A program made the position numbers and the translations under genes. Of a stretch of DNA of 64,000 bases, positions 32,128 to 36,798 are shown one piece after another (within the stretch, counting starts at the first letter, position 1; every line of letters begins with the position of its first letter). The notes beneath the pieces were generated by a model. It saw nothing but the letters and a program-made list of their open reading frames with translations. It was not told the origin of the DNA and did no database searches. Source of the DNA: Gammaproteobacteria bacterium (GTDB lineage: Bacteria > Pseudomonadota > Gammaproteobacteria > JAABTG01); assembly GCA_017999615.1 (NCBI GenBank), contig JAGNLM010000003.1:62001-126000 (forward strand), written 5' to 3'.

Positions 32128-33261
32128 TCAGGGGGGACAGGGTGCCTCCCCCCCGGCGCAACCGGCACCCGTCCACCGGCCGAGCGACTCCGGCAGCGCG
32201 GGCCGCCCGGCGGGCGGCAGGGCAACCTCCGGCACCGCCACCCCCGGGGCGTGGCGCACCTGGGCAACGAGGTCGACCTCGCGCAGAGGGGTCTCGCCGA
32301 GGGCTGCCACGCGGTCCGCGCCGGCATAGGCCAGGGTGACCCGGTCGCCGGAGACGGCGACGGTGGGCGGGTCGCCGCGGGCGCCGGGCGCGGTGAAGGT
32401 GCCGAGGAGGTACACCCGGCCCAGGGGCTCGAGGGGTGCGAGGGCCTGCACCAGCGCCCGGGCGCCGATGCGGGGGGTCTTCAGCGCGAGGGAGGTGGTC
32501 TCTTCCGCATCCCCCGGGACCAGGACGGCCCGCTCCGGGTGCCAGTCGGCGGAGGACGCGGGTCCCACCGAGCGCGGGCCGAGCGGGGTGGCGACCAGGA
32601 AGCCGCCCTCGGCGAACGGCCCCAGCACCGGGTAGCAGCCCGAGACGTCGGCGTGGGTGCGCCGGTCGCGCCCGCGCAGGGACAGGGTGAAGGCGCGCGA
32701 CCCCATCCCCGCGTCGTAGGCGCGCCGGGCGGAGCCGATCTCCCCGAGCCCCGCGCGGATGAGCCCCTTCGCCCCGAGCCCGCTCGCGGCGAGCGGCATC
32801 GCGAGCGCGCCGAGGAGCGCCACGACCACGAGGAACGCGAGCTCGCCCCCGCCCCCGGACTCGATGCGGTAGCGGGGGTTCCCCGGGACCACGCAGCGCA
32901 CGCGGCTCGGCCACAGCCAGGCGACCCCCGCGGGCGTCGTCATGTCGGCGAGGCTGTGGCTCGCCCAGCCGGCGAGGAGCGCGAGGGCGTGGCCCGGCGG
33001 CAGGAGGGCCCAGGCGGCGAGGCCGGCGCCTGCCTGCAGGAGCAGGGAGTGGGTCAGCGTGCGGTGGCCGAAGCGGTCCTCCAGCCAGCCGCTCGCGCCC
33101 GGCAGCAGCCTGCCGGCCCAGGACTGGCGCAGGTCGAGATCGGGGAGCACCGCGCCCAGCAGGGCGCTGGCCGCCTCGGCGAGCGCGGGCACCCGCCCGG
33201 AGACGACGCAGGCGAGGAGGTAGGCGCTCTGGCCGGTGACCAGGTGCGTGGGCGTCATCAC
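32128..33261 (-). CDS. YdjM-type membrane-bound metal-dependent hydrolase
   Basis: 377 residues from GTG 33261 (ATG 33258 is the next codon). The first 190 residues show the YdjM pattern: THLVTGQ, GAVLPDLDL, HRTLTHSLLL and HSLADMTTPAGV. These give a set of His/Asp candidate metal ligands between membrane helices. The C-terminal half is a predicted soluble region unlike short YdjM proteins. The family often travels with plasmids, prophages and conjugative elements. It is last gene of the leftward accessory block. The 156-bp gap to the acyl-CoA synthetase contains imperfect GC-rich inverted repeats. Confidence 0.75.
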   Translation of the reverse strand: MMTPTHLVTGQSAYLLACVVSGRVPALAEAASALLGAVLPDLDLRQSWAGRLLPGASGWLEDRFGHRTLTHSLLLQAGAGLAAWALLPPGHALALLAGWASHSLADMTTPAGVAWLWPSRVRCVVPGNPRYRIESGGGGELAFLVVVALLGALAMPLAASGLGAKGLIRAGLGEIGSARRAYDAGMGSRAFTLSLRGRDRRTHADVSGCYPVLGPFAEGGFLVATPLGPRSVGPASSADWHPERAVLVPGDAEETTSLALKTPRIGARALVQALAPLEPLGRVYLLGTFTAPGARGDPPTVAVSGDRVTLAYAGADRVAALGETPLREVDLVAQVRHAPGVAVPEVALPPAGRPALPESLGRWTGAGCAGGEAPCPP

Positions 33262-33316: not shown

Positions 33317-34246
33317 TCACCGGAACCGCCCGAGGAGCATGCGCAGGCCCACCAGGAGCGAGGTCACCACGCCGGACAGCACGAACAGCTCCACGTCGTT
33401 CGCGCCCCGGGCGATGTAGCGCAGGGCGACGAAGGCGACGAGGGCCACGAGCAGCAGTGGGGTCATGTCGAAGTACCTCGCCCCCGCCTCGTGGCGGTAG
33501 GCGCGCACCCCGGCGAGGGTGACCAGAGCGTCGTGGGCGGCGGCGCCGACCATCCCCTCGATCGCCGCCGGCACCCCCCCGCTCTCGTGCTCCACCGCGC
33601 GCAGGAAAGCCTCGCGCACCCGCGGGCTGGCGAAGGCGACCGGCCTCTCGGCGAGCCAGCGCTCGGCCAGGGCCCGGGTCGCGGCCCGCGGCAGGGGGCC
33701 GAGGTCCACCACCCGGTGGAAGCGCCAGAGGAGCTCCTCCAGGTGGGGGCGGCGCCGGCCGGCGTCACTCGCCGCGGCGAGGGGCGCCACGCTGGCGAGG
33801 GCGAGGAGGAGCTCGGCGCGGGCGGGCGGGAGGTCGATGGACTCCACGAACACGACGGCGCCCCGGTCCCGGACGGACTCCACGACGAGTGCCACCACCT
33901 CCCGGGACGGGGCCCGGGCCAGGGCGCCGCGCACCCACTCCCAGCGCAGCTTCCCCGCCCGGTAGGCCGCCGCCCGGTGGCGCTGGGGGACCAGATGCTC
34001 CGGCACCTGCAGCCCCACGGCCCGGTGCGCCTGCTCGGCCAGCTCGCCGGCCATCGCCCGGGTGTCGGTGTCCCGGACCCAGAGGCAGGGCCGGTCGGCC
34101 GAGATCCGCCGGCGGGCCTCGGCGAGCAGCGCCGACTTGCCGATCCCGGGACGCCCCCGCACGAGGACCGAGTGCCCGGCCGCCAGGGCCGCGCACACTT
34201 CGGCTACCTCGTGATCGCGGCCAACAAGGCCTGCAGGCGGCTCCAC
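33317..34246 (-). CDS. P-loop ATPase with C-terminal membrane anchor
   Basis: 309 residues. Walker A GRPGIGKSAL lies at 31-40, with a Walker-B-like AVVFVESID near 130. The C-terminal 60 residues hold two membrane helices (LLLVALVAFVALRYIARG, ELFVLSGVVTSLLVG). It resembles STAND/ORC-type AAA ATPases. The start GTG overlaps the upstream TolC-like gene by 43 bp. Role unknown; it may be part of the accessory element. Confidence 0.65.
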   Translation of the reverse strand: MEPPAGLVGRDHEVAEVCAALAAGHSVLVRGRPGIGKSALLAEARRRISADRPCLWVRDTDTRAMAGELAEQAHRAVGLQVPEHLVPQRHRAAAYRAGKLRWEWVRGALARAPSREVVALVVESVRDRGAVVFVESIDLPPARAELLLALASVAPLAAASDAGRRRPHLEELLWRFHRVVDLGPLPRAATRALAERWLAERPVAFASPRVREAFLRAVEHESGGVPAAIEGMVGAAAHDALVTLAGVRAYRHEAGARYFDMTPLLLVALVAFVALRYIARGANDVELFVLSGVVTSLLVGLRMLLGRFR

Positions 34247-34857
34247 TCGTTTCCCCCGTGCCGGCGCGCGGCGGCGAGCAGGGCGGTTTCGAGATCGGCC
34301 CGCGTACGCTGGGCGCGTTGCTCGTCCTCCTGCACCCGCTCGGCGTCCGCCCAGAGGGAGGCCGCCTCCGCCAGACCCTCTGCCACCTGCTGGCGGCGGT
34401 AGTCCAGGCGGTCCCGGTGGAAGCGGCGCAGGGTCTCGAGCTCACGGAGCTCCCCGGCGCGGGTGCAGAGGCGCTCGAGGTCGGCGAGGAACGCCTCGGT
34501 GGCGGCCCGCTCCTCGCGCCGCCACGCGGTGCGGGCCCGGGTCGCCTCGAGCTCCTGCCTGCGGTCGAAGAGCGGGATGCGCAGGCGCAGGGCGGCGTTG
34601 GCGCCCGCGGCGTCGAGGTCGGTCGTCTTCTGGGCGTAGCCGAGCACGAGGTCCGCCGACCAGCCGTGCTGGTGGGCCTGGGCGGCCTGCTCCTCGCGCC
34701 CGGCGACGAGCACCGGGTGGGCCGAGAGTACCAGCCGGACCGCCTCCTCGAGCGCGTCCGCGTCCCCGCAAGCCCTTGCAGCGGGAGCGGCAGCCAGAGC
34801 CAGGGCGAGCAGGGCCACGGCGGGCAGGACCAGGCCGCCCCTCGGTCGCCCGCTCAC
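34204..34857 (-). CDS. TolC/outer-membrane-efflux-like exported coiled-coil protein
   Basis: 217 residues from a GTG. The signal peptide LVLPAVALLALALAAAPAARA is followed by one TolC-type repeat pattern (VLSAHPVLVAGREE, AALRLRIPLFDRRQELEATRAR) and a long helical hairpin. It is half the size of true TolC proteins, so it probably does not form a channel by itself. It overlaps the upstream gene by GTGA. Confidence 0.6.
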   Translation of the reverse strand: MSGRPRGGLVLPAVALLALALAAAPAARACGDADALEEAVRLVLSAHPVLVAGREEQAAQAHQHGWSADLVLGYAQKTTDLDAAGANAALRLRIPLFDRRQELEATRARTAWRREERAATEAFLADLERLCTRAGELRELETLRRFHRDRLDYRRQQVAEGLAEAASLWADAERVQEDEQRAQRTRADLETALLAAARRHGGNEWSRLQALLAAITR

Positions 34858-35138: not shown

Positions 35139-35154
35139 GCGGTCATCTCCTGTC

Positions 35155-35210
35155 ACGGTTCGCATCGCACGGTTCGCATCGCACGGTTCGCATCGCACGG
35201 TTCGCATCGC
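35155..35210. repeat. Four perfect 14-bp tandem repeats
   Basis: ACGGTTCGCATCGC is repeated four times without a mismatch. The array fills most of the 100-bp gap between the phage-O-like gene and the next gene of the accessory block. It could be iterons, a regulator binding array, or a recent slippage expansion. Confidence 0.95.
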
Positions 35211-35238
35211 AACCCCTCACGGCAAGCTTGAGGAGCAC

Positions 35239-36180
35239 TCACCCAAGGCACGCCCGGGCGGCTGCGGCCCGCTCCGGGCCTGCCAGAGGGGAACCGCCGC
35301 CAATCGCGCGGCGCAGTCCGTCCACCCGGGCCCGCGCCTCCCCGGGCGCGAGCCGGGGCGGCGCCACCGCACGCAACCCCTGTCTCGCCCCCGGCTCGCG
35401 CAGACGCTCCATGGCCTCGAGCGCCCGGGCCCTCTGGCGGGCCTCGGCGACCCGCAGCCCCGGTGTCGGGTCGAAGGTCCCCGCCTGCCAGCGGCGCACC
35501 AGCGCCGCCAGCACCGCGAGCGGGGACTTGCGCACCTGACCGGCCTGGATGGCCGCAGCCACCACGTCCAGCAGCGCCTGGTCCTCGGCGCCGACCGGAG
35601 CCACGAGCTCGGTGGCCTGCCGGCGCTCACCGTCGCTGAGGGAGCGGTGAAAGGCGAGATCGGGACGACCACCACCACGCAGGGGGACCGGCAGGCGAAC
35701 CACGTGCGCGCCCGATCCCCGTGGTGGTGGTATTTCTTGTCTTTCTCCTGATCCAGGGACTACCTCCTGGGATCCAGGAGGTACTCCTCCGCGCGCGTGG
35801 GGAGCCGTCCCGCAACAGGGACAGCGGGCGTCCCGATTCGGGGACGGGGGACGCCCCGTTTCGGGACGGGTGTCCCGTTGCGGTACGCCGCAGGGCTCGA
35901 GGTCGACCGCAAGCAGCTTGCCCCGGGCCCCGGGGCGCGAGCGCAGGACGCCGAGGTGCTCGAGCTCCAGCACCGTCTCGCGGCAGTGCGCGGGGGTGAT
36001 GCCGGTGAGCCGGGAGAGCTCGGTGGAGGAGACCTCGACGGCGGCGAGGGCCGTGCCGGGGAGGCCGCCGGGGAGGGCGCCGCCGAGGGAGAGGGAGAGG
36101 ACGGCGAGGAGGACCTTGTACTGGCGCTTGCCGAAGGGCTGGCGGGCGAGCGCGGCGAGGAGGGTGTCGAGGGCGGTCAT
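35239..36180 (-). CDS. Phage replication-protein-O-like winged-helix protein
   Basis: 313 residues. The N-terminal 90 residues resemble the phage O/Rep_O winged helix: GKRQYKVLLAVLSLSLGG, SSTELSRLTGITPAHCRETVLELEHLGVLR. A low-complexity Pro/Arg/Gly middle (105-175) is encoded by the iteron-like repeats at 35807-35886, and the C-terminus is helical. It could instead be a plain HTH regulator. It is divergent from the XRE gene across a 126-bp AT-richer region, as in phage or ICE immunity and replication modules. The ATG at 36180 has GGAG upstream. Confidence 0.5.
   Translation of the reverse strand: MTALDTLLAALARQPFGKRQYKVLLAVLSLSLGGALPGGLPGTALAAVEVSSTELSRLTGITPAHCRETVLELEHLGVLRSRPGARGKLLAVDLEPCGVPQRDTRPETGRPPSPNRDARCPCCGTAPHARGGVPPGSQEVVPGSGERQEIPPPRGSGAHVVRLPVPLRGGGRPDLAFHRSLSDGERRQATELVAPVGAEDQALLDVVAAAIQAGQVRKSPLAVLAALVRRWQAGTFDPTPGLRVAEARQRARALEAMERLREPGARQGLRAVAPPRLAPGEARARVDGLRRAIGGGSPLAGPERAAAARACLG
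35761..35783. repeat. Perfect 10-bp inverted repeat inside the O-like gene
   Basis: Arms TACCTCCTGG and CCAGGAGGTA are separated by GAT. It lies between the iteron-like array and a locally T-rich stretch (35721-35755). In an origin it could be a cruciform or initiator site. Confidence 0.7.
35807..35886. other. Four iteron-like dyad repeats (candidate lambda-type origin)
   Basis: Four related units with internal dyad symmetry begin at 35807, 35830, 35853 and 35872: GTCCCGCAACAGGGAC, GTCCCGATTCGGGGAC, GCCCCGTTTCGGGAC, GTCCCGTTGCGGTAC. The spacing is 23, 23 and 19 bp. The lambda origin is likewise an array of four dyad iterons inside the O gene next to an AT-rich segment. The repeats are seen directly; origin function is inference. 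Confidence 0.5.
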
Positions 36181-36243
36181 GAGGCATCTCCATGAGCAAA
36201 TGACATTACACAAATGAGAGTAGATGCCATATACGCATTGCGC

Positions 36244-36264
36244 AAGGCGTCCTCATGACGCCTT
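36244..36264. promoter_or_regulatory. Inverted repeat operator candidate in the divergent control region
   Basis: 8-bp perfect arms AAGGCGTC and GACGCCTT have a 5-nt spacer. It lies midway between the divergent O-like and XRE genes, so it could control both. A second dyad (GCATAG/CTATGC, 36293-36310) lies next to the XRE start. Confidence 0.5.
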
Positions 36265-36306
36265 CACATGAGCTCGTGAGCATGATCTGTTGGCATAGGG
36301 CCTGCT

Positions 36307-36798
36307 ATGCTTGATGCCATGGAGACATTTTCGGCCCAGCTCGGCGCCCGCATGCGGGCCGCACGCAAGGCGGCGCGGCTCAGTCAACACCAGTTGGGCG
36401 AGGAGGTGGGGCTCGACCAGGCCTTCATCAGCCGGCTCGAGACCGGCGTTGCGGAGGGCACCCCCGCGCAGATGATGGCGATCGCCCGGGCCCTCGGCGT
36501 CTCCGTCTCCGGGCTGATGGGGGTGGAGCCGGTCCTGGAGCCGGTCCGGCCCCGGGCCGTGCGCAGCCGGAAGGACGTCCTCGACGACCCCGGCGCCCCG
36601 GCCGGTCTGCGGGCACTCGCGGAGGACCGGGCGCTCACGACGAGCCTGCGCGTCGGGGAGCTGGAGTGGCGGGCGCTCGCGTCCATCGAGCTGCCCGCCC
36701 CGGCCACCAAGGAGGGGTACGTCGCGGTGCTGATGGCGGTGCGGGGGGCCTCGGGCGCGGCCGGCCCGGGCGCGGCCGATCCGGAGGAAAAAGGCTAG
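36307..36798 (+). CDS. XRE/CI-like repressor of the accessory block
   Basis: 163 residues from ATG 36307; ATG 36319 is an equally possible start, and neither has a good Shine-Dalgarno. The Cro/CI helix-turn-helix is at about residues 10-60 ([32 protein letters not shown]). A less conserved C-terminal half ends in an Ala/Gly tail. Divergent placement against the O-like gene suggests a repressor controlling the leftward block. It is the last gene before the selenoprotein. Confidence 0.75.

Follow-up and report, generated by a model that had tools for sequence, protein, structure and literature searches.

A putative lambda-type initiator gene with an internal iteron array in a conserved chromosomal cassette of a gammaproteobacterium

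Gene content of the locus

The window, i.e., the whole 64,000-nucleotide stretch of DNA that was analysed, contains a gene for an O-like protein that diverges from a regulator gene and heads a run of genes on the same strand. Together they form a six-gene cassette (XRE repressor, O, small protein, TolC-like protein, AAA ATPase with transmembrane segments, and YdjM).

36307..36798, + strand: XRE/HTH_3 regulator, divergent from the O-like gene, in a CI-like position
36181..36306, no strand: divergent intergenic region, presumed from the sequence to hold the XRE and O-like promoters/operators
35239..36180, - strand: O-like initiator gene, 313 aa
34854..35138, - strand: small 94-aa protein without known family, 54% identity in Sedimenticola
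34204..34857, - strand: TolC-like protein, named after the TolC-family label of a Thermus plasmid gene and inspection; no Pfam match
33317..34246, - strand: AAA_16/STAND-like ATPase with probable C-terminal membrane segments
32128..33261, - strand: YdjM-type membrane protein ("metal-dependent hydrolase")

Neither a P-type helicase loader nor a helicase gene lies next to the O-like gene, where the next gene is that for the 94-aa protein, and no integrase, partition or phage structural gene was found in the cassette. Cassette order is kept in G001, the source of the only same-genus orthologue, and in a Sedimenticola metagenome genome (L031). The Sedimenticola locus consists of two XRE genes and the O-like gene followed by genes for VRR-NUC, the small protein, the TolC-like protein, AAA and YdjM, and it holds counterparts of five neighbours in the window at 46-54% identity. 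Helicase-like, HNH and NERD/helicase genes border it (L031:1-5278), which gives the region the look of a defence island.

An O-like protein with a hybrid architecture

The O-like protein comprises a winged-helix domain (aa 1-95), a disordered linker (aa 96-172) encoded by the same DNA as the iteron and A-rich region, and a helical, STY4528-like C-terminal domain (aa 176-295). An AlphaFold model has the same succession of winged helix, disorder at aa 96-172 and helical C terminus.

The first-pass annotation had described the gene as phage-O-like with a winged helix, and profile comparisons bear this out. A PHROG search returned two matches, both to "replication initiation O-like" families (PHROG 678 at 0.0024). 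Direct scores against the curated families were under their cut-offs, at E 0.0068 and 17.3 bits for Pfam Phage_rep_O (PF04492; cut-off, 28.7) and E 0.034 and 14.6 bits for NCBIfam TIGR01610 (cut-off, 45.5); the best single Pfam match, also under cut-off, was the generic winged helix Rrf2 (E 0.0014). The L031 orthologue, with 38% identity to the window protein over aa 5-244 (E 3e-34), is a clear Phage_rep_O (E 2e-26; 92.7 bits in Pfam and 80.2 bits in NCBIfam, both above cut-off), and its N terminus has 40-44% identity to lambdoid O proteins. Because the window protein scores under the curated cut-offs and the L031 orthologue above them, the former is, as judged from sequence, O-like, yet not a formal Phage_rep_O member. 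Against four lambdoid O proteins (lambda, HK97, mEp043 and phiES15), hhalign gave a probability of 92.8% (E 4e-7) with a two-species profile and 98.5% (E 2e-15) with a profile including Sedimenticola, in both cases for the N-terminal domain only; the alignment spans the N-terminal ~100 columns and leaves the C-terminal half outside. Generic winged helices were the only matches in a PDB sequence search, and a structure search, with rows for residues 12-96 only, likewise returned generic winged helices (CRP and LexA among them) and no lambda O structure.

The C-terminal domain is common to a different set of proteins than the N terminus. It resembles the C terminus of STY4528-family replication proteins (NF040582), which are associated with pathogenicity islands/integrative elements, in four of six relatives (best E, 4e-6). 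The window protein differs from that family in scoring far below its cut-off (13.6 bits, C terminus only; cut-off, 130) and in having no conjugation genes nearby. The "replication protein" of Thiothrix fructosivorans pTfr153 likewise has an O-like N terminus and a homologous C terminus (28% over most of the length), but a scan of its gene detected no iteron array, and the gene has other neighbours and lies near parAB.

Iterons, A-rich island and inverted repeats

The middle of the O-like gene contains the following elements.

35872..35886, - strand: iteron 1, GTACCGCAACGGGAC (gene strand)
35853..35867, - strand: iteron 2, GTCCCGAAACGGGGC
35830..35845, - strand: iteron 3, GTCCCCGAATCGGGAC
35807..35822, - strand: iteron 4, GTCCCTGTTGCGGGAC
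35761..35783, no strand: 10-bp perfect inverted repeat with a 3-nt loop, TACCTCCTGG-GAT-CCAGGAGGTA, between iterons and island
35722..35790, - strand: A-rich island, candidate unwinding element, codons 131-153, A/T-ending
35668..35731, no strand: larger inverted repeat, ACCACCACCACG...CGTGGTGGTGGT, just beyond the A-rich island

The four dyad units reported in the first-pass annotation, with spacings of 23, 23 and 19 in the middle of the gene, are present as 15-16-mers (spacing in gene order, 19, 23 and 23). Under a chain statistic that combined four dyads, a spacing of 17-26 and mutual identity, none of 3,000 synonymous-codon shuffles encoding the same protein reached the array, as was also the case for lambda O (0/3,000). 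A simpler array score was 38, equal to that of lambda, and was reached by 0/200 synonymous and 0/200 dinucleotide shuffles. Near-perfect dyads elsewhere on the 245-kb contig are single, and four occur together only at the O-like locus. The iteron copies occupy differing reading frames and are therefore not a by-product of a repeated peptide.

Repeats are found in the orthologues as well. The Sedimenticola gene contains five dyad iterons with spacings of 25, 23, 23 and 23. The G001 gene contains several degenerate units, with 1 of 3,000 shuffles reaching the array under the chain statistic and 23 of 200 on the simpler score. Compared with the window, G001 has more units and a longer linker, the extra iterons adding residues in frame, a situation that can be likened to that of Stx phages, in which two extra iterons add 13 residues (PMC7466680). 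Genome G193 has a further Phage_rep_O gene (L039:7272-8315; E 9e-26), which contains five near-perfect dyad iterons, GACACCAAAACGGTGTC, and has two XRE genes upstream. An AAAC-type iteron centre, noticed post hoc, is common to the window, Sedimenticola, G193 and lambda, with differing arms.

The locally T-rich stretch noted in the first-pass annotation is real. On the gene strand it is an A-rich island that comes after the iterons and holds the 40-mer with the highest AT content in the gene (53%; gene mean, 25%). Only 4 of the 23 codons at positions 131-153 end in G or C, compared with 256 of 290 elsewhere in this 75% GC gene (Fisher p=5e-13), and the G001 orthologue retains the bias (9/23 versus 293/330; p=1e-7). 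Protein constraint alone would not be expected to produce this preference for A/T-ending codons. The hexamer AAAGAC lies within the island at 35739-35744 and recurs in the A-rich tracts of G001, Sedimenticola, G193 and lambda, the occurrences falling in two reading frames; this was again a post hoc observation, with a chance by shuffling of 2-9% per sequence.

The 10-bp perfect inverted repeat is present as first described, but it is broken in the G001 orthologue and so is not a conserved part of the region. G001 and Sedimenticola share the larger inverted repeat, which folds moderately better than shuffled sequences do (z about -1.6 to -2.9) and overlaps coding sequence rich in Pro/Gly. This repeat, the surrounding cassette and a C-terminal half without demonstrated lambda likeness go beyond what the first-pass annotation had described.

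Comparison with lambdoid origins

Lambdoid origins are located centrally within O and consist of iterons, each an inverted repeat, and an AT-rich tract (PMC7466680). The lambda record has four annotated iterons in O at 20-24-bp spacing, followed by an A-rich tract. The proposal that the gene mirrors such an origin is upheld in the main elements: a homologous winged-helix N terminus, a divergent repressor gene upstream, dyad iterons in mid-gene with about 20-24-bp spacing and an AAAC-type centre, and, immediately following the iterons on the gene strand, an A-rich tract. Neither of the two findings that the first-pass annotation named as refuting it was made: the protein has O similarity by HMM, and repeats occur in the orthologues. 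In contrast to lambdoid systems, the locus is chromosomal, has no phage genes around it and no P gene, and has GC-rich iterons; the C-terminal half of its initiator is not aligned to that of lambda O, a conserved inverted repeat is present beyond the A-rich tract, and the whole is set in a plasmid-type gene module.

Distribution of the cassette and its plasmid relatives

Among 369 genomes of the class, the AAA profile matched 6 and the O profile 15, the O matches mostly via the C-terminal domain; the other genera of the family yielded no orthologue. Genome G085 keeps the cassette order with another initiator, a winged-helix, HTH_36-like protein (L072:10636-11778), whose gene has eight repeat copies inside its coding sequence. 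Since this cassette carries a different repeat-bearing initiator, the initiator seems to be exchangeable while in-gene repeats are retained.

The rest of the module has relatives on plasmids. Without this O, TolC-like, AAA and YdjM genes lie near replication genes on Nitrosococcus and Methylobacter plasmids, and plasmids of Allochromatium, Synechocystis and Thermus carry AAA and YdjM homologues side by side or close together (module plasmids NC_007483, NZ_CP091426, NC_013852, NZ_CP007545 and NZ_AP024928, from three phyla). These plasmids share with the window homologous, adjacent AAA and YdjM genes in the same order, joined in the gammaproteobacterial plasmids by the TolC-like gene. They differ in that the nearby replication genes are of other types (e.g., RPA in Methylobacter), whereas the module of the window is chromosomal and joined to the O/iteron unit. 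A literature search found no paper on the cassette or on the TolC-like/AAA/YdjM module. PADLOC gave a weak Avs2-like match to the ATPase only.

Chromosomal location

The window lies on contig C3 (245 kb), whose ORF starts read as core genes, e.g., hisS, der, metK and sucCD. No tRNA genes were found on C3; the core genes outweigh this absence, and the possibility that C3 is a plasmid or chromid was rejected. The O-like locus was likewise rejected as the sole chromosomal initiator (a normal dnaA is present on contig C11) and as the skew-defining main origin, oriC. The first-pass annotation had proposed a GC-skew check, which gave no switch at the locus, the sign being unchanged across C3 on both sides. 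Given the core genes on C3, the lack of a skew switch and a normal dnaA elsewhere, the locus is not the main origin.

The flanking genes, for acyl-CoA synthetase and peroxiredoxin, are alike in the window and G001; a flanking gene was not found in synteny within the same family. No convincing direct repeats or att sites flank the locus. A phage carrier was rejected, as O, AAA and the small protein had no relatives in viral contigs, and the window O and AAA had none in phage records. No plasmid copy of the window O was found.

Proposed function and alternatives

Comparative analysis demonstrates homology to lambdoid O proteins, the anatomy of an origin, a signature of non-coding selection, a conserved cassette and chromosomal fixation within the genus. 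We consider it likely that the locus is an O-type initiator with its own lambda-style origin, a plasmid- or phage-like replicon core that became fixed in the chromosome, and that this core is probably repressed. The earlier suggestion of a domesticated or cryptic replicon is supported by the conserved chromosomal position and the plasmid-type gene company, both read from sequence. By analogy with lambda, O dimers would bind the iterons via the winged helix and form an O-some, the A-rich island would melt, and the C-terminal domain might recruit the host helicase, directly or via a host loader; this last step is a guess, given the absence of a P-like loader. During normal growth, the divergent XRE protein would keep the origin repressed. 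We infer that the origin may still be able to fire. Direct HMM scores under the cut-offs, the dN/dS of the O-like gene, the lack of a skew switch and of a P-like loader, and the degenerate G001 array count against this interpretation.

Selection on the O-like gene bears on whether it is instead a decaying relic, i.e., a trapped former prophage or plasmid replication gene that has lost initiation and whose iterons are slowly eroding. Between the window and G001, dN/dS is 0.65 for the O-like gene and highest in the last 45 residues (0.87), as expected of a relic, and the degenerate G001 iterons, the missing skew signal and the lack of integrase, partition and phage structural genes in the cassette would fit as well. 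However, the reading frame is open and the A/T-codon island is kept in both species, the core of the C-terminal domain is more constrained (dN/dS 0.44), and purifying selection is clear for the remaining cassette genes, whose order recurs in other genera (0.14-0.34 for XRE, small, TolC-like, AAA and YdjM genes). Decay is an unlikely account of the locus. A dN/dS of 0.65 may reflect an initiator that is diverging fast together with its iterons or one that is partly relaxed, and the retained A/T-codon island favours co-divergence.

The protein could also be a winged-helix transcription regulator that controls its own gene via operators inside it and has no role in replication. Its best single Pfam match and its structural matches are to generic winged helices, but O-like families win in PHROGs and NCBIfam and the Sedimenticola orthologue is a clear Phage_rep_O. 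In addition, ordered iterons with an adjacent A-rich island constitute the layout of the lambda origin, and the cassette mates lie near replication initiators on plasmids, so that a purely regulatory function appears quite improbable.

An incompatibility or exclusion device, in which O and the iterons on the chromosome would titrate or silence any incoming plasmid or phage of matching iteron type, has a precedent in lambda, where plasmids with oop and iterons ITN3-4 prevent rep-lambda phages from replicating (PMC3349717). Such a conflict would be consistent with how fast O and the iterons have diverged between the sister species and with the nuclease/helicase genes beside the Sedimenticola copy. 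The collections searched contained no phage or plasmid that matched, however, and we regard exclusion as a distinctly doubtful explanation.

The possibility that a repeated peptide or a GC-rich composition produced the pattern as an artefact, for which the repetitive linker sequence of the G001 protein (RDxRPE) could be cited, is refuted at the level tested by the differing reading frames of the copies, the failure of synonymous shuffles to reach the array score and the A/T-ending codons within a 75% GC gene.

A broader extension of the replicon interpretation is tentative, and we hold it to be improbable as a whole: the locus would be a second, lambda-type chromosomal origin, vertically kept and repressor controlled, that can fire (e.g., after DNA damage), over-replicating its surroundings or escaping as a circle, and that is coupled to a TolC-like/AAA/YdjM envelope module marking an undescribed replicon family on plasmids and chromosomes across phyla.

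Lambda origins inside a gene are familiar from phages; the putative copy described here is chromosomal and vertically inherited and has a hybrid initiator. If the replicon interpretation is true, the locus would point to an uncharacterised replicon family, with the module on plasmids of Gammaproteobacteria, Cyanobacteria and Deinococcota, and would provide natural iteron/initiator pairs for the study of recognition co-evolution. It also raises the question of whether a bacterial chromosome can carry a usable, DnaA-independent and normally silenced origin.

Additional features of the locus and its relatives

In G085, genes for a LexA-like repressor and a Y-family DNA polymerase adjoin the cassette (L072:4203-6135), an arrangement shared with the Methylobacter plasmid that hints at a connection to SOS. 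An array that is missing in G001 (about one copy there) lies between the O-like and small genes of the window at 35154-35211 and consists of four perfect head-to-tail copies of the 14-bp unit CACGGTTCGCATCG.
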